NCBI GenBank assembly: GCA_002840755.1
Contig: PHBZ01000025.1
Coordinates: 1-64,000 of the forward strand
DNA from: Chloroflexi bacterium HGW-Chloroflexi-10
GTDB taxonomy: Bacteria; Chloroflexota; Anaerolineae; Anaerolineales; Anaerolineaceae
Direction: 5' to 3'
Length of the DNA stretch: 64,000 nt
Shown here: positions 43,909 to 61,708 of the stretch, piece after piece
Layout of the letters: each line of letters opens with the position of its first letter
Numbering within the stretch: the stretch's first letter is position 1
The notes under the pieces: generated by a model
What the model was told of the DNA's origin: nothing
Databases searched by the model: none
The model's input: the letters and a program-made list of their open reading frames with translations, nothing else
Translations under genes and position numbers: made by a program

Positions 43909-43921
43909 AATGTAAGTTAAT

Positions 43922-43944
43922 TTACATTTTTTTTATTTATGTAA
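43922..43944 (+). promoter_or_regulatory. Operator-like palindrome A, TTACA-N13-TGTAA
   Basis: TTACA (43922-43926) and TGTAA (43940-43944) with 13 bp between. The identical 23 bp layout recurs before both RpiR genes (44988 and 61667). A further TGTAA-like half-site lies just upstream at 43911. The likely ligand is one or both RpiR regulators. Confidence 0.6.
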
Positions 43945-44147
43945 GTTTTACGAAACAAACACGTCATTCGTGCCAACGTGAACCACAGTTAATAAAAATT
44001 TCAATATTACGATAATCTAGCCACACTTATCACATCGGCCAGGAAACAACCTGAAAACAAATTTAACTAAAAAATATGCAAGCTGAGAAAGCCACTATAG
44101 ATAGTTATTTTTTATTATTGATTTTATAAAACATAGGAGATAACAAA

Positions 44148-44834
44148 ATGATTAAAGCAATTTTTTTTGACGCAGCAGGAATATTATATACAAGAAATGG
44201 TCCAACAGAGGAGTTTGCGATACATCTCCTTCAAGATAATGGATTTTCTACTGAGATTTCCTCTGATCTAATACAGAAACAATTTTCATTACGATCCCAA
44301 GCCAACCAGGGTGTTATCAACCATGAGATATATTGGGAACAATACTTGTTGGTGCGGAAAGTCACTGATCCTGAACTACGAAAAAAGTTTATTGAACAAA
44401 TCATTAATTATTCAAACAACATTCAATCCATTCCAGGCAGCAGGGAGACACTTGCCGAATTAAAACGCCGGGGTTTTCTCATGGGAATTATCACAGATAC
44501 GATGTACCCTGTCGAATGGAAAATGCGCCGCCTTGAAAAAGCTGGTGTTGCTCAATTTATCGAAATCGTCGCTTGCTCGACGGATCTTGGTGCGCATAAA
44601 CCAGATCCTGTGGTTTATTCATATGCATTGCAGCAAGCGAACCTCACACCGGATGAATCCGCCTTCGTTGGGCATCTCGGTATTGAACTCGAGGGTGCTC
44701 AAAAAGCAGGAATGACCACGATTGCAATTAACTATGACGTTGATGCTAAGGCAGATTACTATTGCAGTTCGCTACTGGATTTATTGAATCTTCCAATTCT
44801 GCAAAAATCCATACATGAGTCAATCGTGAAATAA
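44148..44834 (+). CDS. HAD-superfamily protein with altered catalytic motifs
   Basis: 228 residues, HAD subfamily IA layout. Motif I reads IFFDAAGILY: nucleophile Asp8 is kept, but the usual second Asp is Ala10. Motif II is GIITDTMYP, motif III is the lysine in GAHKPDPVVY. Motif IV reads FVGHLGIELEGAQKAGM, so the metal-binding Asp is His and the second acid is Glu. Typical phosphatase chemistry is therefore doubtful; it may bind a phosphosugar or be a specialised hydrolase. It is closely related to the second domain of the double HAD protein at 54777-56216. It has its own promoter and operator and precedes the RpiR gene by 196 bp. Confidence 0.8.
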   Translation: MIKAIFFDAAGILYTRNGPTEEFAIHLLQDNGFSTEISSDLIQKQFSLRSQANQGVINHEIYWEQYLLVRKVTDPELRKKFIEQIINYSNNIQSIPGSRETLAELKRRGFLMGIITDTMYPVEWKMRRLEKAGVAQFIEIVACSTDLGAHKPDPVVYSYALQQANLTPDESAFVGHLGIELEGAQKAGMTTIAINYDVDAKADYYCSSLLDLLNLPILQKSIHESIVK

Positions 44835-44942
44835 ATATCAAAATTGTTCTATTGACCTTAAAAGGATCAGGTTCTTAGGGAGTTCTCTTAGAAAGTTTTG
44901 TAAGTAGCTGTAGAAGTAACCAAATAATAGCATTTTTATTGC

Positions 44943-44971
44943 TTGTAAATAGGTTTCATTTGATGTATTAT
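44943..44971 (+). promoter_or_regulatory. Promoter of the left RpiR-transporter operon
   Basis: TTGTAA at 44943-44948, 17 bp, TATTAT at 44966-44971. The operator-like palindrome starts 17 bp after the -10 box. The corresponding promoter on the other side of the island (61709-61737) has the same TATTAT and the same 17 bp spacing. Confidence 0.5.
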
Positions 44972-44987
44972 AAAAATGTTAGTAAAC

Positions 44988-45010
44988 TTACATAATTATA
45001 ATTTTTGTAA
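44988..45010 (+). promoter_or_regulatory. Operator-like palindrome B, TTACA-N13-TGTAA
   Basis: TTACA (44988-44992) and TGTAA (45006-45010), with an extra A/T pair of flanking bases (ACTTACA ... TGTAAGT including the outer positions). It matches copy C at 61667-61689 in 20 of 23 positions, including the AT-rich centre. It ends 20 bp before the RpiR start codon and so probably serves autoregulation. Confidence 0.65.
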
Positions 45011-45030
45011 GTATCACAAACAGAGGTGCC

Positions 45031-45927
45031 ATGAGCAGTGATGGAATTGAACAAGTTGAATTTAGTAAATTAATAGCTGAACATTACGACGAACTTACGA
45101 TCAGTGAAAAACGTATAGCGTCTTTCATAAGCCAGAATCAGGATGAAGTTGCATTCATGTCTGCAGCGGAAGTTGCTGATGCATTGAATTTAAGCGAACC
45201 AACCATGTTACGCTTCGCGCGAACGCTGGGTTTTGAGAGTTACCCTGCCATGCGAGTAGCGCTACAAGCAAAAGTTCGTAACCTTGTCAACCACTCTGCT
45301 CGGATTCGTAGTCGGTTGGATGATTTGCGTGTGTCTGGCGATATTTATGAACAACTGGTCACTTCAGAGATTGATTTCCTTACAGAATCACTCCATTCTC
45401 TGGACCGAGAAGCCTTTAATATGGCGGTTGAATACCTTCGCGTCCATCAACGTGTTTTTGTTTTCGGTTTAGGACCATCCGTTTCACTCGTGGATCAGTT
45501 GGAAATCCGGTTGACTCGCTCTGCCAGGCATGTTATTCCCCTTCGAACCTCTGGACGAGAATTGTTAGAACCCCTGCTATTAATGGGTAAAGATGACCTT
45601 CTTATTGCGATCGGGTTCCATAGCGTAACCCCCTATTTGGAATTGGTCCTTGAGCGAGCAAATGAGTATAACACGCCTGTCATTCTGATTACTGATACTC
45701 TGGGTGACCTTGTGGGTAACAAGGCGTCTGTAGTCCTTGCTGCTCGGCGTGGACCTGTTTCTGCATTTCACTCGCTGACTGTCCCAATGACGATTATTAA
45801 TACCTTGCTGCTTGTCTTGAGTTCCGTTGATCAGGAAAGAATCATGAATAATCTGGATAAACTCGACCAATTGCGGGACAGCGTACGGCGAAAGAATTTT
45901 TTGCCTTTAGCCAGAAAAAAGAAATAG
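45031..45927 (+). CDS. MurR/RpiR-family transcriptional regulator
   Basis: 298 residues with AGAGGTG just before the ATG. An N-terminal helix-turn-helix (about 15-90) contains ALNLSEPTMLRFARTLGFES, typical of HTH_6. The C-terminal SIS sugar-phosphate-binding domain (about 125-260) contains RVFVFGLGPSVSLVDQLEIR and VILITDTLGDLVG. RpiR proteins respond to phosphorylated sugars. The strong similarity to the RpiR protein at 60745-61617, including GPVS-FHSL near the end, marks the two as paralogues likely to share the TTACA-N13-TGTAA operator. It is 6 bp from the permease gene. Confidence 0.9.
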   Translation: MSSDGIEQVEFSKLIAEHYDELTISEKRIASFISQNQDEVAFMSAAEVADALNLSEPTMLRFARTLGFESYPAMRVALQAKVRNLVNHSARIRSRLDDLRVSGDIYEQLVTSEIDFLTESLHSLDREAFNMAVEYLRVHQRVFVFGLGPSVSLVDQLEIRLTRSARHVIPLRTSGRELLEPLLLMGKDDLLIAIGFHSVTPYLELVLERANEYNTPVILITDTLGDLVGNKASVVLAARRGPVSAFHSLTVPMTIINTLLLVLSSVDQERIMNNLDKLDQLRDSVRRKNFLPLARKKK

Positions 45928-45933
45928 GAGCCT

Positions 45934-47772
45934 ATGATGGTTGCCCACATAAACCCCCAAAAATCAGTACACCAACCATTCAGTGCTCATTTCAGGCGAT
46001 TCATGCGTTGGCTCACAAGTCCACACGTACTTCTGACGCTTATTATGCTTGCTTTGATGATTTATCTGATTATTATTCCACTTTTCCGGATGGTCATCAC
46101 TACACTCACGTTTCAGGAAAAAGATATTGTCACGTATCCTGATGCCGTTGTAGGTAGCTTCACACTCTACCACTGGATCAGGATGCTTACCTCCAAGATC
46201 AGTCAGATTATATTGTACACACCGTTGCAGCATTCGCTGGTTGTCTCAGCTGGGGCTACGATTATTGCTGCCGTGTTTGGGTGTTTGATGGCATGGTTTG
46301 TTATTAGAACGGACATGCCCGGTAGAAAAATAATAAATGTCCTGGCAATCATTCCATACATGATGCCATCCTGGACAATTTCAATGGCCTGGACAGTATT
46401 ATTTAAGAACCGAACAATTGGTGGAGCGCCGGGAATTCTTGAGTTTTTATTGGGAAAAGGTCCACCCGACTGGTTTGCTTATGGACCAGTACCGATCATG
46501 ATCAGCAGTGGACTGCATTATTACACATTCTTTTTTCTATTTGTTTCTGCAGCGTTAATGTCCATCGATTCCAATCTTGAAGAAGCAGGCGAGATTATGG
46601 GAGCCAATCGCTGGCGAATCTTGCGGAAAATTACATTCCCGCTTGTTCTACCAGCATTAATGTCAGGTTTTATTATGACTTTCTCAAGGGTCATGGGGAC
46701 CTTTGGCGGGCCTAATATTTTAGGTGTTCCCGTCCGCTATTACACCCTTTCAACCATGATTCGTGCAGATATGAAACTGGGGAACAATGCAGATGGTTTT
46801 GTATTGGCACTCATGTTAATAGCGATTGCGATCATTACTGTTTTTATAAACCAAAAAGCAATGGGAACCAAGAAAAGTTTTGAAACCATAGGTGGGAGAG
46901 GTCTTGTAATCAAGCAGGTGCAATTAAGGAGTTGGCGGATCTTTCTAACAACACTGGTGATTACTACCGAAATCATCATAGCTGTCATTCCCGCAAGTCT
47001 CTTATTGTGGAACACCTTTATGAAAACATCTGGGGATTACAGTTTATCCAACTTGTCTCTGATTCATTGGATTGGAAAGAGCGACCCGTTAATTGATGAT
47101 GGGTTGCCAGGAATTTTTCGAAATCCTGCAATCTATCGTGGCGCCTGGAATTCTATAAAACTTGCTTTTAGTACTGCCTTTTTTTCCGCCCTATTAGGAG
47201 TGATTTTGGGTTATGCCATTGTTAAAGGCCGGGGCACCAGGCTATCCAAAATCATTGAGCAGCTTGCCTTCATTCCATACGTGATTCCAGGAATTGCCTT
47301 TGGGGCGGTATACATTTCCATGTTTGCAAAACCGGTTGGACCTATCCCGGCTCTGTACGGAACTTTCGCATTACTGATTGTCGTTTCTGTCGCCAAGAAT
47401 CTTCCTTTTTCCAGTCGTACGGGGGTAACTGCAATGATGCAGGTTGGAAAAGAACTGGAAGAAGCTGCGATGGTGGCTGGAGCAAATGCCTGGCTTCGCT
47501 TTACAAGGATCCTCTTTCCTCTCACAAGAAGTGGATTTGTATCCGGATTTTTACTAACCTTCATTACGACTATGCGAGAGTTATCTTTGATCATTCTGTT
47601 GGTAACCCCGGCTACTCAAGTCCTCGCAAGTATGACTATGCGCTATACCGAGAATGGAAGCGAACAGAAGGCAGACGCGGTGATAATCTTGTTGATCGTG
47701 CTCATACTTGGCGGAAACTGGCTCATCAGCCGCTTCCGAAAAGGTAGTTTAGAAAAGGGGTTAGGTATTTAA
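45934..47772 (+). CDS. Fused two-domain ABC transporter permease (AfuB/FbpB type)
   Basis: 612 residues with about 12 membrane helices and two binding-protein-dependent transport domains in one chain. Each half has the EAA loop that docks on the ATPase: LEEAGEIMGANRWRILRKIT near 213 and LEEAAMVAGANAWLRFTRIL near 507. Annotation pipelines usually call this family ferric iron permeases, but the AfuABC branch carries hexose phosphates, and the RpiR context favours an organic phosphate. The paralogue at 58869-60704 is nearly the same length and similar throughout. No functional ATPase gene follows here. Confidence 0.88.
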   Translation: MMVAHINPQKSVHQPFSAHFRRFMRWLTSPHVLLTLIMLALMIYLIIIPLFRMVITTLTFQEKDIVTYPDAVVGSFTLYHWIRMLTSKISQIILYTPLQHSLVVSAGATIIAAVFGCLMAWFVIRTDMPGRKIINVLAIIPYMMPSWTISMAWTVLFKNRTIGGAPGILEFLLGKGPPDWFAYGPVPIMISSGLHYYTFFFLFVSAALMSIDSNLEEAGEIMGANRWRILRKITFPLVLPALMSGFIMTFSRVMGTFGGPNILGVPVRYYTLSTMIRADMKLGNNADGFVLALMLIAIAIITVFINQKAMGTKKSFETIGGRGLVIKQVQLRSWRIFLTTLVITTEIIIAVIPASLLLWNTFMKTSGDYSLSNLSLIHWIGKSDPLIDDGLPGIFRNPAIYRGAWNSIKLAFSTAFFSALLGVILGYAIVKGRGTRLSKIIEQLAFIPYVIPGIAFGAVYISMFAKPVGPIPALYGTFALLIVVSVAKNLPFSSRTGVTAMMQVGKELEEAAMVAGANAWLRFTRILFPLTRSGFVSGFLLTFITTMRELSLIILLVTPATQVLASMTMRYTENGSEQKADAVIILLIVLILGGNWLISRFRKGSLEKGLGI

Positions 47773-48167
47773 GGAGATATTGAATATGACAGGAATATAA
47801 AAAGTTAAGAACTTGATGAAACTCTTGGAAATAGCACTACAACTTAGAATTCCACCTCATTAGTTAAATTCAAAGATATGTAACCACACCCCGTCCTTCT
47901 CTATCTGAAGATAAGAGATCTCCTTGTGTAAAGCTCCTAGCAGGAACTGAAAGGCCACAAGAGAGTATTTCATGCCGCTTATTTTTGGCCAAGATGATCA
48001 AATTTTTTAAAAGTATCCTGCGAAATCCTGCCAATAATGAACTAAATGAGAATTTTGACCATTTCATAAAGTAAAAAAGTGTTCAAAAAAGGAGGCGAAA
48101 ACGAAATAAAAGTGATTGTTCTCAAAGTTGATCCAATCAGATTTCTATATTCATTAAGGAGAAGAAA
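47773..48167. other. Gap between permease and binding protein
   Basis: 395 bp holding the ATPase stub described separately and otherwise no supported gene. AAGGAGGCG near 48090 and AAGGAG at 48156 are ribosome-binding-like; only the second has a gene behind it. A minus-strand frame of 65 codons (48067 to 47870) has no support. Confidence 0.5.
47786..47863 (+). pseudogene. Remnant of an ABC transporter ATPase gene (first codons only)
   Basis: AAGGAG at 47771-47776 and an ATG at 47786 sit 13 bp after the permease stop, the same spacing as the ATPase start after the paralogous permease (12 bp). The frame reads M T G I stop, then KVKNLMKLLEIALQLRIPPH and a second stop. VKNLMK aligns with IKNLTKKF at the start of the ATPase at 57774-58856. 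The rest of the 395 bp gap shows no Walker motifs. This looks like the stub of a deleted ATPase, so the left transporter must borrow one. The match is short. Confidence 0.45.
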
Positions 48168-49439
48168 GTGAAAAAGATTTTTAGAATTGCATCTCTTGTT
48201 CTAATGATTAGCTTATTAGTGGCTTGTGCGCAGCCTACAGAGGCGCCAGTTACTAATCAGGCGCCGTCAGTAACCGAAGAAATAGTTGTTCCACCCAGTG
48301 ATAGCCCTGCTGCAACCGAAGAAAAAGTTGTTCCACCTACCGAAATTTCACTCAGCCCGGCTGAGCAGTGGGCAAAAGACAATGGCATTGGTACTTACCA
48401 ACCTGAAACCGAGGACTGGGCGGCTATTGAAGCAGCAGCTAAAAAAGAGGGTTCCGTAATTGTCTACGCCAATTCTTCCAGAATTCAGGATGCAGCCGCA
48501 GCATGGGCATTATTGTACCCTGAGATCACTATCGAAGCCAATGACATGGGTGGAGCGGACGTCATCACCAAGGTTCGTGAAGAACAAAAAGCAGGCGCAT
48601 TTACCGGAGATGTCTGGTTCAGTGCTGGTGGACCAGATATTGAAGGAGAGTTTGTTCCCAACCAATACATTTGGAAATACATTCCCCCGGAATTACTCTC
48701 TGTTATCCCCGCCGAGAACCAAGAGCCAGTTGTTACTTCAAGCACAGAATTATTTGGTTGGGTCTATAATTCCGAATTGAATGAAACCTGCCCAATTTCT
48801 AACTGGTGGGAACTTACCGATCCGGCCTGGAAAGGAAAAATCTTTATCAAGGATCCAATCAATAGTGCTGAAGACCTTGGAATGTTAATGAGTGTTACCA
48901 CGCATGCCGATGAGCTGGCAGCAGCATATAAAGATCTCTATGGCACTGATGTTGTCCTGGATGAAGATACTCCTGATGCTGGTTGGTTATGGTTAAAGAA
49001 GTTTGCACAAAATCAACCCATTGGCGTTGGGGGAAGCGATGATGTATGGGGCGCCATGGCAATTCCAGGTTTGCAGGATAATATGCTCGGATGGCTGCCG
49101 TTGTCAAAATACCGAAACGTTATTTCCGGAAAAGCTGTCTTTGAACCCTGTGTTGAATTAAGTCCTGTAGTTGGTGTTCAAAAACACAATTATTTGGCTA
49201 TTATCAACCAGGCCCCGCATCCTAATGCCGCCAAATTGTTCCTCAGATTTGCTTTGAGCGAAGAAGGATTTGCACCATGGAATCAGGTTGGGCAATATTC
49301 TGGACGAACCGATATCATACCAGGAGAAGCTGCCCTTCCGTTCAAATCCCTGACTGTTTATAACTTTGACAACTTGTTTGTTTACAAAAATATCACAGCA
49401 TACCACGACTTCTATTCAATCAGTTTGCTGACCCCATAA
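48168..49439 (+). CDS. ABC transporter substrate-binding lipoprotein (AfuA/FbpA-like)
   Basis: 423 residues from GTG, with AAGGAG 6 bp upstream. The signal peptide ends in the lipobox LLVAC, so Cys20 would be lipidated. A 45-residue Pro/Thr/Glu linker follows. The type 2 periplasmic-binding fold starts near WAAIEAAAKKEGSVIVYANS and includes AGAFTGDVWFSAGGPDIEGE, YNSELNETCPISNWWEL and DEDTPDAGWLWLKKFAQN. The paralogue at 56387-57643 shares all of these. The solute is unknown; a phosphorylated sugar or polyol is inferred from the neighbours. Confidence 0.88.
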   Translation: MKKIFRIASLVLMISLLVACAQPTEAPVTNQAPSVTEEIVVPPSDSPAATEEKVVPPTEISLSPAEQWAKDNGIGTYQPETEDWAAIEAAAKKEGSVIVYANSSRIQDAAAAWALLYPEITIEANDMGGADVITKVREEQKAGAFTGDVWFSAGGPDIEGEFVPNQYIWKYIPPELLSVIPAENQEPVVTSSTELFGWVYNSELNETCPISNWWELTDPAWKGKIFIKDPINSAEDLGMLMSVTTHADELAAAYKDLYGTDVVLDEDTPDAGWLWLKKFAQNQPIGVGGSDDVWGAMAIPGLQDNMLGWLPLSKYRNVISGKAVFEPCVELSPVVGVQKHNYLAIINQAPHPNAAKLFLRFALSEEGFAPWNQVGQYSGRTDIIPGEAALPFKSLTVYNFDNLFVYKNITAYHDFYSISLLTP

Positions 49440-49449
49440 AACAATTACA

Positions 49450-49485: not shown

Positions 49486-49556
49486 CATTTTGATCACTGT
49501 GGGCATTGAAAGAAGAGAGACCAAATATTTTTTTATCAGCTGCAATAAGATGAAGA

Positions 49557-50420
49557 CTAGAGCGTAATGGATTGCCCAATAAGAGCGGAGGCAACCGGAA
49601 TAGCGGGATTTAGCTGTTGAAGACGGTTTTTCACCATTTCGTAATGGCAGCAATCCCAAAATTCATTGAGGACGCGGCCAATTTCATGCAGGTGCGTGAT
49701 TACCAGACGCTGCGGTTGGAGAGCCAGGAAAAAGCGGCAAAAATCTTCCACCTTGGGCGGATTAAGCATATCCGCGCATGCTTTTCCAAGCCAGAGATGG
49801 GCAAAAACGATATCAGGTGGGGAAAACACAGGTATTTTTTCAGGTTGATGAGAGCGGGTATCGCCGGGGAATAACCAGGATTGAGCGCCGCAACTGACGT
49901 GATAACCCATCGCAGGCACACCGCGGGGAACACCATCTGCAGTGGTATGAAAATGTAGCCCGTCAAAGGGAGTGATGCAGATACCATTCAAGTAAATGGG
50001 CTCGAGAGGTTTGGGAACAATGATGTTACCGGGATCCAACCCGCAATCCTCCAACTGCTGCTGGAGGATTGCGGGGATGACCCACCGGATAGGTAAGTGG
50101 GCAAGTGACCGGATGAGTGGCCTGTCGAGGTGGTCCGCGTGGCTGTGAGTGAGAAGTACAAAATCAAGCTGCTGAAGATCATGTGATAGATCAAAAGGAG
50201 GTGTTTGACCAAGGCGGGTGTAAATGGTGAAAGGGTCAATCGCCCAGCGGATATTTTGGGTACGAAAGAGATAGTTGGCAGAATACAGCAACCAACAACG
50301 GTCTTCCGAACTATTGGTCTGCCATTGCGTAATCATATCCGACCAGAGTGATGGATAGGATGAAATTATTTGATTTTTTATTGCCGTAACAACTTCCTGG
50401 CGATTAGAAACTGGAACCAT
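49557..50420 (-). CDS. Metallo-beta-lactamase-fold hydrolase (UlaG-like)
   Basis: 287 residues from ATG 50420, which overlaps the kinase gene by 17 bp; a further upstream start at 50471 would overlap much more. The metal motif is LLTHSHADHLDRPL (His-x-His-x-Asp-His). A later Asp lies in SWLFPGDTRSH and a final His in RLVITHLHEIGR. UlaG, a relative, opens the lactone of ascorbate-6-phosphate, and similar proteins cleave phosphodiesters or lactones. As last gene of the right operon it may open a cyclic or lactone intermediate; the substrate is inferred only from context. Confidence 0.75.
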   Translation of the reverse strand: MVPVSNRQEVVTAIKNQIISSYPSLWSDMITQWQTNSSEDRCWLLYSANYLFRTQNIRWAIDPFTIYTRLGQTPPFDLSHDLQQLDFVLLTHSHADHLDRPLIRSLAHLPIRWVIPAILQQQLEDCGLDPGNIIVPKPLEPIYLNGICITPFDGLHFHTTADGVPRGVPAMGYHVSCGAQSWLFPGDTRSHQPEKIPVFSPPDIVFAHLWLGKACADMLNPPKVEDFCRFFLALQPQRLVITHLHEIGRVLNEFWDCCHYEMVKNRLQQLNPAIPVASALIGQSITL

Positions 50421-51303
50421 GATTATAGTTCTTCTGAATGAAAGCCTGTACTTCTGAGAGGGTGCGATCAAAGGGTCCCAGTTTTTCCATCTTCATACTG
50501 GTAACCGCAGCGGCCCAGATACCAGCTTCATAGGGGGTTTTGGTGAGACGCATGGCTACATAAGTGCCAATACAGGTATCACCGCGTCCGCTGCGCCCGA
50601 TTAGTTGTGAAGGATAAAACGGAAATTCATGGAATTCGCCGAGCGCATAGATCAGAACACCATCTTTGTGGGTCAGGACAATTTCCTGAGGGCCCATGTC
50701 TGCGAAAATTTTAGCAGCCTTGCGGATATCGGCTTCACCGGTGAGAAATTCTGCCTCAACCGCATCACTCTTGAGGATGTTCAGATGGGCAAGAGTTATT
50801 TTCATATCTTCCCATGGCTCGTACTTGAGCTCTTTTCCACGCAGGACACGCACAAAACCCTGCATATCGGCGGCAACCTGCATATTTTTTGCCTGCAGGG
50901 CTTCGATAACATCCAGACCGACCTCACCACGGATGCTGGAACCGATCACAGCAGCCTGGGAATCGATATCCTGGACAGCGGCGGGGGTGATGGTGCCGGC
51001 GATGGATGAGACAGACAAATTACGAATGTCCGGGTTGGCAGTGGGGTACTCTAGGAGCATGGTGGTGGATTGGGGCGAATAAGTGGGATAACAATCGATA
51101 CCGGCGGATTGGAATTTTTCGACAACACCGATATCTTCACGGGCTAAACGAGTGACGACGGCGACATGGAAACCGAGATTGACTACCGCGTGAGCTGAGT
51201 AATTGATAGCGCCGCCATCGACAAATTTGGTTTCAGTCGGCGTGATAATTTTGTCTTTGGTATAGTTTCCAACGTAGAGAACATCGTATTTGGTTTGGTT
51301 CAT
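50404..51303 (-). CDS. PfkB-family carbohydrate kinase
   Basis: 299 residues, ribokinase fold. YDVLYVGNYTKDKIITPTET opens the first strand, FVDGGAINYSAHAVVNLGFH is the substrate-side signature, and GRSGRGDTCIGTYVAMRL holds the anion hole and the catalytic Asp. The usual GAGD reads GRGD, a conservative change. It would phosphorylate a sugar, polyol or nucleoside with ATP. With HAD phosphatases, a TIM-barrel isomerase and an MBL hydrolase in the same operon it fits a catabolic pathway. The gap to the PiT gene upstream is 89 bp. Confidence 0.85.
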   Translation of the reverse strand: MNQTKYDVLYVGNYTKDKIITPTETKFVDGGAINYSAHAVVNLGFHVAVVTRLAREDIGVVEKFQSAGIDCYPTYSPQSTTMLLEYPTANPDIRNLSVSSIAGTITPAAVQDIDSQAAVIGSSIRGEVGLDVIEALQAKNMQVAADMQGFVRVLRGKELKYEPWEDMKITLAHLNILKSDAVEAEFLTGEADIRKAAKIFADMGPQEIVLTHKDGVLIYALGEFHEFPFYPSQLIGRSGRGDTCIGTYVAMRLTKTPYEAGIWAAAVTSMKMEKLGPFDRTLSEVQAFIQKNYNHGSSF

Positions 51304-51392
51304 GTTGATTCTGCCTTTTATTGATAATAATTTATTTTTTGACGAAGTTAGTGATTATATCCACTTTTCAGAAAAATTCCGAAACAACCTGG

Positions 51393-52379: not shown

Positions 52380-52389
52380 ATAACGATCC

Positions 52390-53010: not shown

Positions 53011-53028
53011 GAATTCTATCCTTTCAAT

Positions 53029-54696
53029 TTATACGGGGAATATACAGCCTTTTTCGAGCAGATAATTCAATCCGGATTTCACCTGTTCAACGGTGTTAAA
53101 CTCCTGAAACTCACAGGTACGAATTGCATTCAGAGGTAAATATCTGGCCACCATATCAAAATCAACTTCTCCCATCCCTGGAGCCAGGTGGTCGGTTGTC
53201 CCTAGTACATCGTGCATATGGGTTTCGATTATTCGGGAGGCAAACCGGTCGAGCCATTCCTGATGGGGATAAAAACCAAGCCGGTCCAGTGTTTGGGCAT
53301 GGCCAACATCATAAATAAAGCCAATCTGTTCAGGAGTGGCCATGTTTAATAAGATTTCCAATTCGTCCGGACTGGGGATTTCCATGAAATGGTAACGCAC
53401 TTCAATTCCCAACCGGATGCCAAGCGGAATAGCGTAATCCAGCAACTCACGCACACTTTTTTTGACCGATTCAAAATGAGGAACGGCTAATTCAGAGCGC
53501 AATTTGATCATGCCGTCTCTTATGGTTTTATATTCAGCGGTACTATCTGTGCCGGCTGCAATCATCGAGCGTAAAAGATTTTCATGGTGTTTCTGTGGTT
53601 GAACATGGCCGGCGTGAATCACGATTAACGAAGCTCCAAACCGTTTAGCGATATCAATGCTTCGTTTTATCGAATGAACGCCCTTTATACGAAACTCTTC
53701 ATTAGTGGATGAAATCAGATAATCTTTTTCTTTTAAAGCCTCTGCAGAAATATCTGCCGGGCATGGCTCATGAATACTGCTGATAGGCATAACGCTCATA
53801 TCCGCGTGTTCGAGCATAGCTGAGTTGACCAGATGGTTAAGTTCAACAGCGGCGAAGCCTAAACGGCGGGAAGACTCAAAAAAATCCGCCAGGGCAGGAA
53901 AGTTCTTGATAGCCCACATGGTTGAAAAAGCGGCATTGTATTTTGGTTTTAAATAATTTTTTGATAAAACAGGGAAAATGTTAAGTAAATCGGTCAAATT
54001 ATTTACAAAATAATCCGGAGCAAGTGATGGATCTTTTACCAATTGTCCTTCGGGGTTGGCAGGGTCAGCGATGATAATGGTCATTGCAAAGCCTGCCTTT
54101 TTGGCAGCATATACATCTCTTTCTACACGATCACCAATATAAACGCATTTCTCGGCGCTGACACCCATCCGTTGAATAGCTTCAAGTAATATGGAAGGGT
54201 CAGGTTTCCGTTTTCCTATCACAGCAGACAATATAACTGTTTCAAAACAACCGGAAATATTCAGCTCTTTTAATGCAGCCGGTACTTCAACACTGCTGGT
54301 AGTATTGCTAACCAATCCCAGGCGATAGCCCCGCCGAAAGAGGTTGATGACAACCTCTTTTGTTTCAGGGAAAACCGTTCTGCGATTGATGGAATCTCGA
54401 TAGAGTTGATTTAATTCAATAGCATGTTGGTGAACCAGTGGCTCCAAGCAATCAGGCAGCATCCACTTCGTCCACAACTCTTCTTCAGTTAATTCAATGA
54501 ATGTTTCCTCGGCCCATTTTTTGTAATTATAGGCTCTCTGATTAAGCAGGCTGGCAAATTCAACAGGAGAAGCTTCCACTCCTGCTATTTTCATTATCCC
54601 TACGATAGCATTTTGCTTTTCAGATTCGGTACTTTTTCTTGAACCTCGTAAGGTACCGCCCATATCAAATAAAATTGCTTCAATATTATTGATCAT
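53029..54696 (-). CDS. Fusion of a HAD hydrolase with a xylose-isomerase-like TIM barrel
   Basis: 555 residues. Residues 1-235 are a HAD domain: IEAILFDMGGTLRGS (nucleophile Asp11, second position Gly), GLVSNTTSSVE, GKRKPDPSILLEA and VYIGDRVERDVYAAKKAG with motif IV acids intact. Residues about 258-555 are a sugar-phosphate isomerase/epimerase barrel of the EndoIV/IolE type: LIVIHAGHVQPQKHH, GIEVRYHFMEIPS, GFIYDVGHAQTLDRL and IIETHMHDVLGTTDH supply the His, Glu and Asp metal ligands. Fusing the two suggests successive steps on one sugar, for instance isomerisation and dephosphorylation. I know of no characterised protein with this order. Confidence 0.8.
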   Translation of the reverse strand: MINNIEAILFDMGGTLRGSRKSTESEKQNAIVGIMKIAGVEASPVEFASLLNQRAYNYKKWAEETFIELTEEELWTKWMLPDCLEPLVHQHAIELNQLYRDSINRRTVFPETKEVVINLFRRGYRLGLVSNTTSSVEVPAALKELNISGCFETVILSAVIGKRKPDPSILLEAIQRMGVSAEKCVYIGDRVERDVYAAKKAGFAMTIIIADPANPEGQLVKDPSLAPDYFVNNLTDLLNIFPVLSKNYLKPKYNAAFSTMWAIKNFPALADFFESSRRLGFAAVELNHLVNSAMLEHADMSVMPISSIHEPCPADISAEALKEKDYLISSTNEEFRIKGVHSIKRSIDIAKRFGASLIVIHAGHVQPQKHHENLLRSMIAAGTDSTAEYKTIRDGMIKLRSELAVPHFESVKKSVRELLDYAIPLGIRLGIEVRYHFMEIPSPDELEILLNMATPEQIGFIYDVGHAQTLDRLGFYPHQEWLDRFASRIIETHMHDVLGTTDHLAPGMGEVDFDMVARYLPLNAIRTCEFQEFNTVEQVKSGLNYLLEKGCIFPV

Positions 54697-54776
54697 TTTT
54701 CATTATCCTCAAGCAATAAATTTATAGATAAACCCAGAGTTATATTGCTGTTTCTTCCTTTAATAACAGGTTATTC

Positions 54777-56216
54777 TCAACTACCCTGGATATTGGAAGA
54801 AGGGCAAATGATTGGAACATTCAGGAGGTCTGAGAATTCCTTAATATAGAAATCAGATTCGACGCCATTTTCATAATTAAATGCAATGGTCTGCATGCCT
54901 ACACTATGCGCACCCTCAATTTCTGTTTTTTTATGACCAACAAAGACAGCCTGACCAGACTCAATATTCAATTGGTTGAGGGCAGCTTGATAGATGATCG
55001 GGTCGGGTTTACGGACGCCTATTTCTTTGGATGATATGATGGAATCCCAAATATGGCCAAAACCAGCATCTTCAAACCACGCAAGTTTGGATGATATGGG
55101 ATTTGCAGTATCGGTAATAATTCCCAAATAGAATTCTCTCCGTTTTAACTCCAGCAATGTATCTTTAACACCATCAAAAAAATGAACACTATTATCCTCA
55201 TCTTCGAGAATTTGTTTGCCACGTTCTATCAAGGTAGGGTCAGAAATTCCAAATAAATGTAAATACGCTTCGCGATATTCATCCTGTTTTATTTGACCAC
55301 GATAGGCTTTTTGAGTTAACACATTTTTTTCCTGTGCATGATTGTTTAGAAAATCAATATTTAATTCCTTTAAAAATTTCACAAATTCATTACCGCGATC
55401 TTCCCGATAATAGAGAATATCACCCGCATCAAAAAGTATTGCCTGGATGGGTAATGAAGATTTTTTATCGGTTTGTGTATTTACGTTTTTAACCAGGGCA
55501 ATTAATTCACTCATATTTGTAATAATTGCATCCGGAACCGGACCAGAATCGTCTTCACCATGTTTAAAATCATGTTCAATCTGAACAGCCATTCCATATC
55601 CTGCTTTACGCGCCCCCTTAATATCTCGTTCAACCCGATCACCCACATATAGGCATTCACTGGTAGCAACATTTGCCATTCTGGCAGCGTAGTGAAAAAT
55701 GGAAGGATCAGGTTTACGCCGGTGATACTCACTGGAAAGGATAATTGGGTTAAAAAAATGACTGATATTGTATTTTTTCAAATTCAATGGAACCAAACCA
55801 ACACTATTGATATTACTGATTAAACCTATTTTTAAATTCATGCGTTGTAATTCTTCTAAAACCTGAGGTATTTCCGGACGCATCTCGCGATAGTAAAAAT
55901 TCGTTTCTACATAAACCATTAATTCTTCTGAGATAGAAGAAAGTTTTTCCGGATCAATTGAAAAACCTTTAAAAACAAATTCAGACCAGACTCGGAATGG
56001 AGAATATTCCTCATGCGTTTTCAAACTTGTCTCGTGATATTCTTTGATTCCGTTCGTTACAATCTCATATAGGGAAAGGGTCGATTGATTCAGATCGATT
56101 CCGACCTTGGAAAGGGTTGCTTGTATTCCGGGAGTTGCTGCCAATCGTAATTCACGGGTATACCCATATGTTTCAATAGTTCCACCCATATCAAAGAAAA
56201 CTGCTTTAATTGTCAC
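54777..56216 (-). CDS. Protein with two fused HAD domains
   Basis: 479 residues. Domain one (1-240): IKAVFFDMGGTIETY (Asp9), GLISNINSVGL, HRRKPDPSIFHYA and LYVGDRVERDIKGARKAG, motif IV intact. Domain two (about 255-479): IQAILFDAGDILYYRED (nucleophile kept, second Asp replaced), GIITDTANPISS, GVRKPDPIIYQAAL and VFVGHKKTEIEGAHSVGM, where His replaces the motif IV Asp. Domain two is a sister of the single HAD protein at 44148-44834. One probably active and one altered domain in a single chain suggest a catalytic and a binding or regulatory half. It follows a hairpin after the binding-protein gene. Confidence 0.82.
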   Translation of the reverse strand: MTIKAVFFDMGGTIETYGYTRELRLAATPGIQATLSKVGIDLNQSTLSLYEIVTNGIKEYHETSLKTHEEYSPFRVWSEFVFKGFSIDPEKLSSISEELMVYVETNFYYREMRPEIPQVLEELQRMNLKIGLISNINSVGLVPLNLKKYNISHFFNPIILSSEYHRRKPDPSIFHYAARMANVATSECLYVGDRVERDIKGARKAGYGMAVQIEHDFKHGEDDSGPVPDAIITNMSELIALVKNVNTQTDKKSSLPIQAILFDAGDILYYREDRGNEFVKFLKELNIDFLNNHAQEKNVLTQKAYRGQIKQDEYREAYLHLFGISDPTLIERGKQILEDEDNSVHFFDGVKDTLLELKRREFYLGIITDTANPISSKLAWFEDAGFGHIWDSIISSKEIGVRKPDPIIYQAALNQLNIESGQAVFVGHKKTEIEGAHSVGMQTIAFNYENGVESDFYIKEFSDLLNVPIICPSSNIQGS

Positions 56217-56325
56217 ACCATTTCTCCTAAAAATAATAAGGATTTACCCAAGGCAAACAAATTTGCACCAGATACACAATTGTTATTTCATAAATAAACT
56301 GCCAGGTATTAGAACTCTTCAGATT

Positions 56326-56357
56326 GCAGGGCACGGGTTTATTAATCCGTGCCCTGC
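56326..56357 (-). terminator. Hairpin between the binding-protein gene and the double HAD gene
   Basis: GCAGGGCACGG (56326-56336) and CCGTGCCCTGC (56347-56357) form a perfect 11 bp GC-rich stem with a 10 nt loop, 30 bp past the stop of the binding-protein gene on the minus strand. It may partly stop transcription so that the transporter genes are expressed more than the downstream enzymes. Confidence 0.65.
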
Positions 56358-56386
56358 ATAATTAACTTTTATCAGTCCAATAGCTG

Positions 56387-57643
56387 CTATCTGCCGAGAT
56401 TAATCAGATAGAAGTCACGTGCTTCGATCATATGATCATAAGCATACTGTTCAGCGATGAACCAGGTCATAGAAAAGATTTCGTCTAATGTTTTCTGGCC
56501 TTCGGGAACTTCATAGGTAGAATCCGGGAAATAGGTACCAAATTTTGCCCAGGGGTCCCTACCTTCTGCACTCGTAATGAACTGTATCCACAACTTGGCT
56601 GCGTTGGGGTGCGGAGCCTGGTTGATGATACCGACATAACTCTGGCTCTGAATACCTACAGTGGGAGAAAGCCCCCAACAGGGTTCGAAAGCTAAGTTGC
56701 CTTCCAACACATCCGTCATGTTGGAATAAGAGGTCAGTGCCATATAGCTATCAGTCATTCCTGGTGTAGCAAATGCGGAATCGACTTCATCTCCACCCGG
56801 TTCAGGTGTAGGACCATTCTGAGCAAAACGCTTCAACCACAACCAACCAGCATCCGGGGTGTCATCATCCAGAACAGGTTCTGAACCGTATAGTTCAACA
56901 TAGGCTGCTTTCATCTCATCAGGATGAGCAGCGATGGTGATCAGTTTGCTGAGGGTAGAAGAATCATTCATGGGATCTTCAATGAAAAATTTTCCTTTCC
57001 ATTCCGGGTTAGTAAGTTCCCAAATGTTGGAAATCGGGCAGGTTTCATTTAATTCCGAATTGTATGCAAACACACCGGTACCAAAACGGCTCATCAATAA
57101 TGGTTGTGTATATTTCTCATCAGTCACTGCAGCAGCACTCTCTGGTACAAACCGCCAGACATAGTTCTTCGGCATAACGCTGCCAATCAGTTCAGCACCA
57201 CCGCTGCTAAACCAGACATCACCTGTAAATGCGCCGGCTTTTTGTTCTTCAACAGTCTTGAGAAGAACATCATCACCGCCAAGGTCAAATGCTTCAACCT
57301 TAATTCCGGGGTATTTTTCCATGAATGCTTCGGCGGCTTTTTCAACCTTTGAAGAGTTCGCATAAACAAGTAATTTTCCTTCGGCAACGGCGGCGGCTTC
57401 AATCGCTGCCCAATCGTGCGTATCCGTATAATACTGACCGAGCTGGTTGGTTTTCAACCACTCTTCTTGTGCAGATAAGGGAGCGACTGTTGCAGGTGCT
57501 GATGTAGCTGGTACTTCAGTTGCTGCCGGCACATTATTTTCTACGGGTGCATTGGTATTGTTGGGCACATTTGTGGGTTGGGCACAAGCCGCCAACATAC
57601 TGATCGCTACAATCAATATAACCATTCTTAAAAGACTTTTCAT
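56387..57643 (-). CDS. ABC transporter substrate-binding lipoprotein (AfuA/FbpA-like), second copy
   Basis: 418 residues. The lipobox MLAAC makes Cys20 the lipidation site; a Pro/Thr/Ala linker follows. The fold mirrors the copy at 48168-49439: WAAIEAAAVAEGKLLVYANS, AGAFTGDVWFSSGGAELIGS, YNSELNETCPISNIWELTNP and DDDTPDAGWLWLKRFAQNGP. The pocket-side segment differs (for example PTPEPGGDEVDSAFATPGMT), so the two proteins may prefer related but different solutes. It lies 130 bp after the ATPase. Confidence 0.88.
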   Translation of the reverse strand: MKSLLRMVILIVAISMLAACAQPTNVPNNTNAPVENNVPAATEVPATSAPATVAPLSAQEEWLKTNQLGQYYTDTHDWAAIEAAAVAEGKLLVYANSSKVEKAAEAFMEKYPGIKVEAFDLGGDDVLLKTVEEQKAGAFTGDVWFSSGGAELIGSVMPKNYVWRFVPESAAAVTDEKYTQPLLMSRFGTGVFAYNSELNETCPISNIWELTNPEWKGKFFIEDPMNDSSTLSKLITIAAHPDEMKAAYVELYGSEPVLDDDTPDAGWLWLKRFAQNGPTPEPGGDEVDSAFATPGMTDSYMALTSYSNMTDVLEGNLAFEPCWGLSPTVGIQSQSYVGIINQAPHPNAAKLWIQFITSAEGRDPWAKFGTYFPDSTYEVPEGQKTLDEIFSMTWFIAEQYAYDHMIEARDFYLINLGR

Positions 57644-57773
57644 TTGACTTCCTCCATAACTAGTTAGGAAACAGTATCACTTTTTGTGAATCCAGTGGGG
57701 CCTAATTATTTTCCTTTTGCCTCCTTTATGTTGATGGTGTCTATGTCTGAAGAGAAAAAATCAATCCTTGCAA

Positions 57774-58856
57774 CTATTTAGTAATCAAATTGCCGGTTGC
57801 TTTATCGTAAAGGTTGATGGCATCTTCATTGAAGTTCAACCAGATTTTTTGATCCATTTGGATTTTGCTTACACCCATTTCCTTTACTGTCAGTTCAGTG
57901 TCACCATTGCGCGCAATGATTGTTGTTTCGGCGCCTGACGGCAGCACGGAATACGCCATGAATTCCACTCCACCGTTATCCGAATTCGTGGTCAAGGTAA
58001 TATCTTCAGGTCGAATACCAATGACGACTTCTCCTTTTTGATTATAGGTTTTCACCGGAACATCAAACCTTCCGAGATCCACCATATTCTTACCCGAGAC
58101 CTGGCCCGGCATCAGATTTACTTTGGGATTACCAATAAAATCTGCCACAAACAGGTTGGAAGGGAAGTGATATACCTTATCAGGAGTATCCATCTGCTGA
58201 ATGACACCTTCTTTCATGACGGCGATGTTCGTAGACATGGTCATAGCTTCTATTTGATCATGAGTAACATATACTGTTGTAGCACCAGAAACATGATGTA
58301 AACGTTTGAGTTCTGTGCGCATGTCCATTCTCAAACGGGCATCCAGGTTGGAAAGCGGCTCATCCATAAGGAACACAGTTGGGCGATAAGCAAGCATACG
58401 CGCCAGAGCAATACGCTGCTGCTGTCCGCCACTCATTTCGCGTGGGTAACGGTCTTCGTATCCTGACATTTGAACCTCAGCCAGAGAATCCTTTACCCGT
58501 TTATCCATATCCTCCTTGGAAAGTTTCTGAATTTCAAGAGCGAAGGTAATATTTTTATAAACATTCATGTGCGGCCATAACGCGTAATTCTGGAAAACCA
58601 ATCCAAGTTCACGCTGACCGGGGGGTAAAGAAATCCCCTTCACGTGAGAATAGATCAGTTTGTCACCAATATAGATTTCACCTTCATTGGGATCTTCCAA
58701 TCCGGAAATACAGCGTAACAATGTGGTTTTTCCGCAGCCTGAAGGCCCTAATAGAGTCAGAAATGTTCCTGGTTCAATCGTTAGGCTGACGTTATTTACA
58801 GCGACTACATTACCAAATTTTTTTGTGAGATTTTTTATAATAATAGGGTTTTCCAT
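57774..58856 (-). CDS. ABC transporter ATPase (AfuC/PotA/MalK type)
   Basis: 360 residues. Walker A is LLGPSGCGKTTLLRC near 36-48, the Q-loop VFQNYALWPHMNV, the signature MSGGQQQRIALARMLAYRP, Walker B VFLMDEPLSNLDA and the switch His in TTVYVTHDQIEAM. A C-terminal TOBE-like regulatory domain follows (VIGIRPEDITLTTNSDNGG). It begins 12 bp after the permease stop. Since the left island has only an ATPase stub, this protein probably drives both permeases, as MsiK/MsmK-type shared ATPases do in sugar uptake. Confidence 0.92.
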   Translation of the reverse strand: MENPIIIKNLTKKFGNVVAVNNVSLTIEPGTFLTLLGPSGCGKTTLLRCISGLEDPNEGEIYIGDKLIYSHVKGISLPPGQRELGLVFQNYALWPHMNVYKNITFALEIQKLSKEDMDKRVKDSLAEVQMSGYEDRYPREMSGGQQQRIALARMLAYRPTVFLMDEPLSNLDARLRMDMRTELKRLHHVSGATTVYVTHDQIEAMTMSTNIAVMKEGVIQQMDTPDKVYHFPSNLFVADFIGNPKVNLMPGQVSGKNMVDLGRFDVPVKTYNQKGEVVIGIRPEDITLTTNSDNGGVEFMAYSVLPSGAETTIIARNGDTELTVKEMGVSKIQMDQKIWLNFNEDAINLYDKATGNLITK

Positions 58857-58868
58857 GTTTTCCTCGCT

Positions 58869-60704
58869 CTACATTCCCAGCCCTTTTTTCAGGCTGCCAC
58901 CGCGGAAGCGGCTGATGATGAAATTACCAATCAAGACTAAGGTGATCAGAATGATGATGACAGCGTTTGCCTGCTGTTCATTTCCGTTTTCAATATATCG
59001 CATGGTCATACTTGCCAACACCGCAGTGGATGGGGTTACCAGTAAAATAATCAGCGATAGTTCGCGCATCGTAGTAATAAACGTAAGCAGAAATCCCGAA
59101 ACAAACCCCGTACTGGTAAGTGGAAAAATGATCCGTTTAAACCGGTGCCATGGGCCAGCTCCAGCAATAGCAGCTGCCTCTTCTAATTCTTTGCTCACTT
59201 GCAACATAGCAGAAACACCGCTTCGTGAGGAGTAGGGAATGTGTTTGGCAACAGATACGACAACCAACAACGCGAAGGTTCCATACAAAGCCGGGATTGG
59301 CCCAAAAGGTTTGGTAAACATGGAGATATAAACCGCACCAAATGCTATTCCGGGGATGACATATGGGATAAAAGATAGTTGCTCAACCAGTTTGGAAAGC
59401 CTTGTTCCGCGCCCTTTGACAATTGCATACCCAAGGATCACTCCGAATAAGGCTGTGAAAAAAGCGGTAAATAATGAAAGTCGGATAGAGTTCCAGGCAC
59501 CTTTCCAAATTTTTGGATTAAGTAAAACGCCTGGCTCTCCATTGTTTACTGTTAAATCTCCCTGGCCAATCCAATGCGCCAATGTGAAATTGCTAAGACT
59601 ATAGTCTCCGGTTCGCAGCATCAGCGTGCTATAGATCAACAGGGACAAAGGTAGAACCGCTATGATAAATTCGAAAATGAGCATGAAAAAGGTAAGAATA
59701 CCTTTCCAGTTGCGAAGTTTCATCTTTTTCGACATAAAACCGCGCCCACCGATGGTCTCATAACTCTTACGGGTACCTACCAATTTTTGATTAAGCATCA
59801 CCGTTGTCATGGCGAACATGATCAGTACTACTGCAAGGACAAATGCATCACCATAATTCCCGATCCCAGTATTTGAGCGCAGCATGGTTGAGAGTGTGTA
59901 ATATCGTACCGGCACACCCAAAACATTAGGACCACCAAACGTACCCATGGTTTTAGAAAAGGTCATAATAAAACCGGAAGCAATGGCGGGAATCACCAAC
60001 GGAAAGGTGATCTTGCGCATGATGCGGGAACGGCTGGCGCCTGCCAATTCTCCAGCTTCTTCAAGCGATGAATCAATCGAGAGTAGGGCAGCAGATACAA
60101 AAAGGAAAAAGAAGGTATAGTAATGCAGCCCGCTGCTGATAATAATCGGAATTGGACCATATGCCAGCCAATCTGGTGGTGCTGAACCGGTTAAGAATTC
60201 GAGTAAACCCGGAGTACCTCCGGACGTCCGGTTCTTAAAGAGCACAGTCCACGCCATTGCAATTGTCCAGGAAGGCATAATATAAGGTATTGTTGCTAAT
60301 AAATGGACTATTTCACGCCCTGGCATATCTGTGCGAACAACCATCCAGGCCATCAAACCACCAATGGTTAAAGCCAGAACAGTTGCGCCAAGCGATATCG
60401 TTAACGAATGCACCAATGGTTCAAACGTCATAATCACGGCGATCTTACTGGATAACATTCTAACCCAGTGATACAGTGTAAAATCGCCAATCTCTGCTCC
60501 ATCAATGGCTCGGAGGTCAATTTCCGCAACCGTAATGGTGGTCATAACCATGCGGTATAGCGGGATAATGACCATATAGAATATGATTACCAGCATGATC
60601 AAGGACAGGAAGACATGCGGTTTTGTCAACCAGTGGAAAACTCTGCGAACAATTGCAGTCAACCGCTGGGACCAAGGGAGAGAAGTATCTGAAAAACCAG
60701 CCAT
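58869..60704 (-). CDS. Fused two-domain ABC transporter permease, second copy
   Basis: 611 residues with about 12 helices and two EAA loops (LEEAGELAGASRSRIMRKIT and LEEAAAIAGAGPWHRFKRII). Long stretches are almost identical to the permease at 45934-47772, such as IPYIMPSWTIAMAWTVLFKN and SSGLHYYTFFFLFVSAALLS, which points to a duplication inside this region. The two genes are in opposite orientation. It begins 40 bp after the RpiR gene and shares its promoter. Confidence 0.88.
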   Translation of the reverse strand: MAGFSDTSLPWSQRLTAIVRRVFHWLTKPHVFLSLIMLVIIFYMVIIPLYRMVMTTITVAEIDLRAIDGAEIGDFTLYHWVRMLSSKIAVIMTFEPLVHSLTISLGATVLALTIGGLMAWMVVRTDMPGREIVHLLATIPYIMPSWTIAMAWTVLFKNRTSGGTPGLLEFLTGSAPPDWLAYGPIPIIISSGLHYYTFFFLFVSAALLSIDSSLEEAGELAGASRSRIMRKITFPLVIPAIASGFIMTFSKTMGTFGGPNVLGVPVRYYTLSTMLRSNTGIGNYGDAFVLAVVLIMFAMTTVMLNQKLVGTRKSYETIGGRGFMSKKMKLRNWKGILTFFMLIFEFIIAVLPLSLLIYSTLMLRTGDYSLSNFTLAHWIGQGDLTVNNGEPGVLLNPKIWKGAWNSIRLSLFTAFFTALFGVILGYAIVKGRGTRLSKLVEQLSFIPYVIPGIAFGAVYISMFTKPFGPIPALYGTFALLVVVSVAKHIPYSSRSGVSAMLQVSKELEEAAAIAGAGPWHRFKRIIFPLTSTGFVSGFLLTFITTMRELSLIILLVTPSTAVLASMTMRYIENGNEQQANAVIIILITLVLIGNFIISRFRGGSLKKGLGM

Positions 60705-60744
60705 TAAACAAACTCCTTAATGAATTTATTACGCTTTAGAGCTA

Positions 60745-61617
60745 TTAACTTATTTTTTTCAGGTGTTGTCGGAAGTGATCCAGCTTATCCAAGTGAGCAA
60801 TAACCTCTTCTTGGTTCTGGCTGGCAAGTGCTAAAAGCAGTGCATTGATAATGGTCATTGGTACAACCAGGGAATGGAACTCAGATACCGGTCCACGTTT
60901 GGCGCTTAATACAACATTCGCTTTTTCCCCAATGATGGATCCCAATGTATCAGTGAGCATGATTACTGGGCAATGAACTTCATTTGCATAATCTAAAAGC
61001 AGCTGTAGAGCCGGAGAAACATCAAAAAAGCAGATAACAAACAAAAGATCCTGCTCCGTCATCAAAAGTAAAGGTTCTAGAAATTCCCTGCCTGCGGTTG
61101 TTAGTGGAATTACCTGACGACCAAATCTGTTTAATCGGATTTCTAACAAATCTACCAACGTTATGGACGGACCTAGTCCAAATACAAATACACGCTTAGA
61201 CGCAACCAGCAAATCTACTGCCTGATCCAGAGAATCACGGGATACTGTTTCCAAAGCCTGGGTCATATAATCCATTTCAGATACAACCAGGCGTTCAAAA
61301 ATATCTCCTGAATCCCGTAAATCATCTAATTTGCCACGCAATCGGGCTGAATGAGTTACCCTTCGTCGAAATGATTCTTGTAAAACCGTTCGCATTGCCG
61401 GATAACTGTTATAACCCAGCGTACGGGCAAATCGAACCAGGGTCGCCTCACTTAAATACAAACGTTCTGCTAATTCACTTGCGGAAAGAAAAGCAGATTC
61501 CTCTTGATTTTTTCTGAGGTAATTGGCTATTCTTTTCTCACTTTTTGTGAGTTTGCTGTAACAGGCACTTATAACCTGGCTGAAATCATCAGCATTGGGG
61601 TCAAAAGCCTCTACCAT
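60745..61617 (-). CDS. MurR/RpiR-family transcriptional regulator, second copy
   Basis: 290 residues. The helix-turn-helix contains RLYLSEATLVRFARTLGYNS, and the SIS domain RVFVFGLGPSITLVDLLEIR and VIMLTDTLGSIIGEKA. The DNA-reading helix is nearly the same as in the copy at 45031-45927, consistent with both reading the TTACA-N13-TGYAA palindrome. It heads the transporter operon on the minus strand, with operator copy C ending 50 bp upstream of its ATG. Confidence 0.9.
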   Translation of the reverse strand: MVEAFDPNADDFSQVISACYSKLTKSEKRIANYLRKNQEESAFLSASELAERLYLSEATLVRFARTLGYNSYPAMRTVLQESFRRRVTHSARLRGKLDDLRDSGDIFERLVVSEMDYMTQALETVSRDSLDQAVDLLVASKRVFVFGLGPSITLVDLLEIRLNRFGRQVIPLTTAGREFLEPLLLMTEQDLLFVICFFDVSPALQLLLDYANEVHCPVIMLTDTLGSIIGEKANVVLSAKRGPVSEFHSLVVPMTIINALLLALASQNQEEVIAHLDKLDHFRQHLKKIS

Positions 61618-61666
61618 AATCGGACCTCATTTATTAAGTTATTGTTTTTTGGGGTGGCGGGATATA

Positions 61667-61689
61667 TTACAAAATTATATTTTTTGCAA
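61667..61689 (-). promoter_or_regulatory. Operator-like palindrome C, TTACA-N13-TGCAA
   Basis: TTACA (61667-61671) and TGCAA (61685-61689) on the plus strand, with the same 23 bp length and an AT-rich centre nearly equal to copy B (20 of 23 positions). It lies 19 bp downstream of the -10 box of the right promoter. Confidence 0.6.
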
Positions 61690-61708
61690 TATTTCTTACA
61701 TTTGCTAA

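Follow-up and report, generated by a model that had tools for sequence, protein, structure and literature searches.

We describe a composite promoter element, a predicted operator array of RpiR-family regulators, in a 64-kb window (the whole stretch of DNA analysed, positions 1 to 64,000 of contig PHBZ01000025.1) of Chloroflexi bacterium HGW-Chloroflexi-10. The closest described systems are operators of other RpiR-family proteins. As excerpted from PMC12713135, the operator of S. pneumoniae NanR carries a TGAAAG half-site in the inverted repeat TCTGAAAGTACTTTTAGA, whose hexamers are 2 bp apart, plus a proposed separate half-site; NanR is an activator, and its site lies about 55 bp upstream of the -35 box. 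The same excerpts describe a proposed tetramer of E. coli MurR that bridges adjacent sites overlapping the -35 and -10 boxes and spanning 47 bp. Pseudomonas HexR and RccR have operators with TGT..ACA half-sites, namely TTGT-N7-8-ACAA for HexR and, for RccR, TGTAGT-N3-ACTACA and a 28-bp form whose linker is longer (excerpts of PMC5489143). Excerpts of PMC3616900, PMC6528599 and PMC4286628 were also drawn on, and the excerpted GlaR and ClaR papers contained no RpiR operator sequence.

A literature search limited to open-licence papers returned none pairing RpiR with Anaerolineae and, for a Chloroflexi RpiR regulon, only a Staphylococcus study. To our knowledge, few regulators have been studied in the host's phylum, and the element provides a concrete candidate operator and regulon for a branch of RpiR where that search gave none.

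When compared to these systems, the element shares with the NanR operator the TGAAAG-like half-site in an inverted repeat and the additional separate half-site, whereas its hexamers are 4 bp apart, which sets it outside the SpNanR type, and its sites straddle the promoter. Its layout resembles the one proposed for MurR: two sites, O1 and O2, start 46-49 bp apart here, although the whole element, third half-site included, spans about 82 bp. Relative to HexR and RccR, the spacing is longer (TGT-N10-ACA in site A), there is a third half-site, and the targets are transporter, HAD and phosphoglycerate mutase genes; by eye, TTGT-N7-8-ACAA was found neither in the four sites of the host genome nor in the O2 of its relatives. 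As in other RpiR operators, inverted repeats of TGNAA-like half-sites lie near the promoter of a regulator gene, and we consider it likely that each site is an operator of the local RpiR-family regulator, built as a composite, promoter-straddling array of TGNAA(G) half-sites.

Architecture of the element

In the aligned promoters of relatives, O2 is a 16-bp inverted repeat, TGNAA-N6-TTNCA, just after the -10 box. Where present, O1 is a second copy upstream of it, typically TGMAA-N6-TTGCA, that overlaps the -35 box. TGNNA, the third half-site, follows 13 bp beyond O2. Across 33 promoters the half-site positions are nearly invariant and the spacers drift. The strict O2 occurs at its anchored position in 22 of the 33, the strict O1 in 20, and the right half of O1 (TTGCA, doubling as the -35 box) in 30. 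When O2 is anchored independently of the third half-site, TGNNA is found at +29 in 23/33 promoters and in at most 2/33 at 28 other offsets tested. These 23 comprise 13/21 promoters of relatives used to train the sequence-only profile R1, from which the host genome was excluded, 6/8 held-out promoters and 4/4 in the host genome itself (G000; other G numbers denote other genomes and L numbers fetched stretches of DNA).

The sites were noticed in an earlier note on the window as 23-bp palindromes, TTACA-N13-TGYAA, at 43922-43944 (A), 44988-45010 (B) and 61667-61689 (C), each 13-19 bp behind a promoter with 17-bp spacing. The pattern does occur at these positions and nowhere else in the window, whose five strand-matches were reached by none of 100 dinucleotide shuffles, and all three promoters are found as described. 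The reported agreement of B and C at 20 of 23 positions holds with C read on the strand opposite its gene and falls to 15/23 on the gene strand. Taken as a unit, the palindrome was mis-framed: it is the right half of O2 joined to the third half-site of the larger element, as the following features show.

43870-43947, plus strand: composite promoter/operator A, before the HAD gene HAD_A; TGTAA-N6-TTACA-N13-TGTAA, no clear O1, matched by profile R1
43880-43908, plus strand: promoter at A, TTTACA/TATATT, spacing 17 bp, 13 bp before the 23-mer
43911-43926, plus strand: O2 of A, TGTAAGTTAATTTACA
43940-43944, plus strand: third half-site of A, TGTAA
44939-45013, plus strand: composite promoter/operator B, before RpiR1; TGTTA-N6-TTACA-N13-TGTAA, no clear O1, weakest of the four, matched by profile R1
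44943-44971, plus strand: promoter at B, TTGTAA/TATTAT, spacing 17 bp, 16 bp before the 23-mer
44977-44992, plus strand: O2 of B, TGTTAGTAAACTTACA
45006-45010, plus strand: third half-site of B, TGTAA
61665-61751, minus strand: composite promoter/operator C, before RpiR2; O1, O2 and third half-site, matched by profile R1
61737-61709, minus strand: promoter at C, TTGCAT/TATTAT, spacing 17 bp, 19 bp before the 23-mer
61733-61748, minus strand: O1 of C, TGAAATATTACTTGCA, overlapping the -35 box TTGCAT (61737-61732)
61685-61700, minus strand: O2 of C, TGTAAGAAATATTGCA
61667-61671, minus strand: third half-site of C, TGTAA
G000:C38:68612-68698, 4.6 kb beyond the window: fourth site, directly upstream of a HAD gene; left half of O1 is CGAAA

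At C, at the fourth site and in relatives, O1 overlaps the -35 box and O2 comes behind the -10 box. This layout is not seen at A and B, where regulation may go through O2 and the third half-site.

That the 23-bp palindrome is itself a dimer operator, common to RpiR1 and RpiR2, appears unlikely. Its general form, TTDCA-N13-TGWAA, does occur in more RpiR upstream regions than expected (5 of 38, against 0.13 to 0.19; G513, whose contig ends early, was left out), and the 13-bp distance to the third half-site is constant. However, the 16-bp repeat TGWAA-N6-TTDCA is commoner in the same regions (15/38, against 0.17 expected and a shuffle maximum of 3 at any spacing), the repeat is retained in distant families, in 11/21 regions as against 2/21 for the N13 form, and the exact 23-bp pattern lies at the anchored O2 position, on the gene strand, in 3/33 promoters. 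A composite description was needed because the single 16-mer is too weak: a symmetrised 16-mer matrix alone (threshold 9) gave five matches in the window, at O2 of A, O1 and O2 of C, 29016 and 59832, and missed O2 of B.

Specificity in the genome and conservation in relatives

The bare 23-bp pattern is not specific, whereas the larger element around it is. The genome scan proposed in the earlier note yields 13+18 strand-matches to TTACA-N13-TGYAA in the whole 6.57-Mb genome, no better than the 15+18 of a backwards control (31 vs 33). Profile R1, run over the same sequence, has 14 matches at E <= 10, four of which stand ahead of the noise, all on one contig: the fourth site (2.9e-13), C (1.6e-12), A (6.4e-5) and B (1.1e-4), followed by a match at 0.0986. 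The genome contains a third RpiR match (C42, 24% identical), which was rejected as a regulon member: the profile match at 0.0986, on the stretch around it, is weak and lies some 10 kb away from that gene. Copy A and the profile are not fully independent, the HAD_A promoters of G158 and G161 having served in training. The triple half-site of A also lies upstream of the HAD_A orthologue in G161 and, with its last base changed, in G158; A and B are credited as sites for their position and, in the case of A, for this conservation.

These counts also bear on whether the palindromes are coincidental, functionless pieces of AT-rich promoter sequence. The genome-wide equality of bare pattern and control speaks for that reading, as do the scores of A and B, which are near the noise of other genomes. 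It is nonetheless very improbable given that no window shuffle reached the observed matches, that the profile singles out these loci in 6.57 Mb, that half-sites are conserved at fixed spacing while spacers drift, and that the composite is kept next to orthologues.

RpiR1 is matched at E <= 1e-40 in 13/147 family genomes, including G000, and at E <= 1e-25 in 16/396 class and 6/400 phylum genomes, samples that overlap; 15 + 19 stretches were fetched. In 35 stretches (about 620 kb), a pattern of O1 plus promoter has 28 matches and its reversed control none, and 27 of the 28 fall at promoters of RpiR or HAD genes (including two that match the opposite strand of such a promoter), with one inside the permease gene PERM1. 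A looser triple half-site has 61 matches in these stretches versus 12 in the control.

Among the 147 family genomes, profile R1 has 29 matches at E <= 1e-8 in 19 genomes, divided into 19 training promoters, 2 in G000 and 8 held out. All eight strong held-out matches precede same-strand homologues of the genes behind the window's sites (hereafter, the island): HAD genes in G006, G087, G139 and G169, in G150, close to the end of a contig, a fragment of RpiR (residues 11-97 matched), PERM1 in G112 and G164, and a DUF47-PiT-PfkB group in G004 (only residues 133-206 of DUF47 matched). In G007, G003, G024, G027 and G510, each with one RpiR above threshold, the RpiR promoter and the HAD promoter each have the element. 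Six genomes have a strong match and no RpiR at the E <= 1e-40 threshold; their assemblies consist of 180 to 540 contigs.

In the class, 7/396 genomes have matches at E <= 0.001: G000, the training genome G510, G305, G208, G417 and G384, where the matches of the last four are RpiR promoters, and G347, where no island genes were seen in the fetched stretch. Both the family and class searches scored the best candidates per genome under stricter filters, and weak sites can therefore be missing from them. A further nine weak family matches have E from 0.001 to 0.01. The weak matches in G105, G167, G006:C94, G347 and G139:C337 (E 1e-4 to 2e-3) were treated as noise, their stretches being without island-gene homologues apart from a 32% ATPase-domain match in L190. 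Among distant RpiR upstream regions that did not enter the profile, TGNAA-N6-TTNCA occurs in 11 of 21, against a null mean of 0.13 and a maximum of 2 in 200 shuffles; G209 and G209b share one of these sites, and several of the positives come from one genus.

The earlier note had proposed a small regulon at the RpiR and HAD promoters, and had named many unrelated hits and a lack of conservation beside orthologous RpiR genes as signs against it. Conserved regulatory elements do occur at these promoters in relatives, including those of orthologous RpiR genes; unrelated hits are plentiful for the bare motif and not for the composite profile.

Several observations weigh against our assignment of the element to RpiR. 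Copies A and B both lack O1, the left half of B is TGTTA, and their E values are near or level with those of unexplained matches in other genomes (G347, 1.1e-4; G105, 1.8e-4; G006:C94, 2.7e-4; G167, 3.8e-4). In G158 and G161, the DNA immediately before the RpiR1 gene carries no site of this kind. Of the 21 distant regions, 10 lack the strict repeat, as do 9/17 upstream regions of the family plus G510 (present in 8/17), in the latter mostly where RpiR closely follows another gene. All 13 family genomes with RpiR have a strong match, but 12 of them supplied training promoters, and this agreement is by construction; the relatives are, moreover, non-independent samples.

The last such observation concerns a LacI-type regulator, whose gene (L111:6700-7806, plus strand) is divergent from the HAD promoter at the fourth site. 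Operators of the LacI family likewise take the form of TGNAA..TTNCA-like inverted repeats, and a LacI homologue (at least 47% identity) begins immediately next to the element in 14 fetched stretches, positions read by hand: at the HAD promoter in L103, L104, L105, L107, L108, L109, L110, L111, L112, L182, L183 and L185, at the RpiR fragment in L186 and on the DUF47 side in L181. The idea that the repeats are LacI rather than RpiR operators deserves weight for this reason. Yet the element is kept in G007 (L102), G027 (L101) and G169 (L188), where no LacI homologue was found in the 2.3 to 6 kb available on that side of the HAD element (tblastn, E <= 1e-10), and LacI is about 2.7 kb off in L097 and L100. 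Nor was LacI found at RpiR genes of other families in the O1-carrying stretches L114-L117, L119, L120, L122 and L123. Copies A, B and C sit 7 to 25 kb from the LacI gene, and the repeat has an N6 spacer and no central CG. On balance we regard LacI control as improbable and retain RpiR as the predicted regulator.

The RpiR proteins and the predicted mode of regulation

Both RpiR1 and RpiR2 match PF01418 and PF01380 above the gathering scores and thus have the N-terminal HTH_6 and C-terminal SIS domains of the family; they are 55% identical over the helix-turn-helix region and 58% over the rest. The SIS phosphate-loop consensus is S-x-S-G-x-T. This loop is replaced by GFHSVT in RpiR1 and CFFDVS in RpiR2, so neither has the signature of a phosphosugar-responsive protein, and a loop of this kind is absent in 17/17 aligned sequences (family plus G510). 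A canonical sugar-phosphate effector should therefore not be assumed, including in the design of assays. The loop residues of NanR are Ser179, Leu180, Ser181 and Thr184 (excerpts of PMC12713135). We aligned the window proteins to a solved chain that we infer to be NanR, since its residues match those named in PMC12713135. In this alignment, the base-contacting Arg56 of the recognition helix is kept in the window RpiRs, as in NanR, while the minor-groove Arg67, essential in NanR, aligns with proline. This substitution would fit the wider dyad spacing of 4 rather than 2 bp between hexamers.

In the mechanism we envisage, RpiR dimers would bind O1 and O2, and a tetramer formed through the SIS domains would link the two across the promoter and block RNA polymerase, as proposed for E. 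coli MurR, with the third half-site adding grip. The targets of the regulator would thereby be its own gene and those for HAD phosphatases, the ABC transporter and phosphate handling. Regulation is probably repressive, this being the likeliest mode because O1 and O2 straddle the promoter in the manner proposed for MurR, although NanR shows that RpiR proteins can also activate. The fixed array of half-sites makes the proposed tetramer bridging directly testable. More tentatively, and we would call this doubtful as a whole, an Anaerolineae clade of RpiR may have lost the phosphate loop and no longer sense a canonical sugar phosphate, instead clamping promoters through five fixed half-sites (two in O1, two in O2 and one beyond) read by a linked tetramer, and so coordinating the transport of phosphorylated compounds with phosphate export and phosphoglycerate mutases.

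Cross-talk between RpiR1 and RpiR2 is plausible, as the earlier note had suggested. A different possibility, which we hold at somewhat less than even chances, is that specificity is split and cross-talk slight, with TGTAA/TTACA read by RpiR1, TGMAA/TTKCA by RpiR2, and C a mixed site. Among 36 aligned sequences, the RpiR1-type recognition helix SEPTML is found only in G000, G158 and G161, the same genomes that have the TGTAA/TTACA operator at HAD_A. In G164, by contrast, the only RpiR found has an RpiR2-type helix, yet the PERM1 operator contains TTACA; the fourth site of G000 mixes TGAAG, TTTCA and TGTAA, and few independent lineages are available. Split specificity is compatible with the assignment of the sites to RpiR-family regulators and concerns cross-talk only.

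Genes behind the sites

The genes that follow the sites are listed here, with operon extents at all sites inferred from gene order and strand.

44148-44834, plus strand: HAD_A, HAD-family hydrolase (PF13419), first gene behind A
45031-45927, plus strand: RpiR1 (PF01418 HTH_6 and PF01380 SIS), behind B
45934-47772, plus strand: PERM1, fused ABC permease, PhnU2-like below the family cut-off
48168-49439, plus strand: SBP1, solute-binding protein (PF13416)
49557-60704, minus strand: genes downstream of RpiR2 on the same strand, namely PERM2, ATPase, SBP2, HAD-HAD, HAD-xylose-isomerase-like, DUF47, PiT-like permease, PfkB-like and MBL-fold
60745-61617, minus strand: RpiR2, behind C, 58% identical to RpiR1 over the match
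61785-63928, minus strand: uridine-kinase-like and apgM-like phosphoglycerate mutase genes (the latter past the window end), distal genes behind the fourth site

The order behind B is RpiR1-PERM1-SBP1. The genes of 49557-60704 possibly form one operon with RpiR2, read from C; their PiT, PfkB and xylose-isomerase-like names are ones we presume from the sequences, and the others come from Pfam or homology. No ATPase gene was seen beside PERM1-SBP1 (45934-49439), either here or in the clusters fetched from G158, G161, G112 and G164, and sharing the ATPase behind C would therefore make joint control sensible. SBP1 matched no NCBIfam family, and among solved structures it matches iron-binding proteins in part only (residues 85-236, E about 1e-10).

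Behind the fourth site, the order is two HAD genes, a phosphoglycerate mutase, a kinase-like gene, the apgM-like mutase and a second kinase-like gene, reaching back to 61.8 kb. The LacI-type gene on the other side of this promoter adjoins a gene for tagaturonate epimerase (UxaE).

A gene just outside the window (G000:C38:65441-67036; L111:3442-5037, minus strand) encodes a circularly permuted 2,3-bisphosphoglycerate-independent phosphoglycerate mutase, in which the C-terminal part of TIGR01307 (214-504) comes first and the N-terminal part (2-236) second. A literature search, judged by title, found no paper on a permuted mutase of this kind. Elsewhere in G000 there is only one further match, weak and partial (E 2.8e-5), and homologues of 64-66% occur in G139 and G169. 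On its other side, the island adjoins an open reading frame of 5003 amino acids (28425-43436) with many repeats, which we take to resemble Calx-beta domains.

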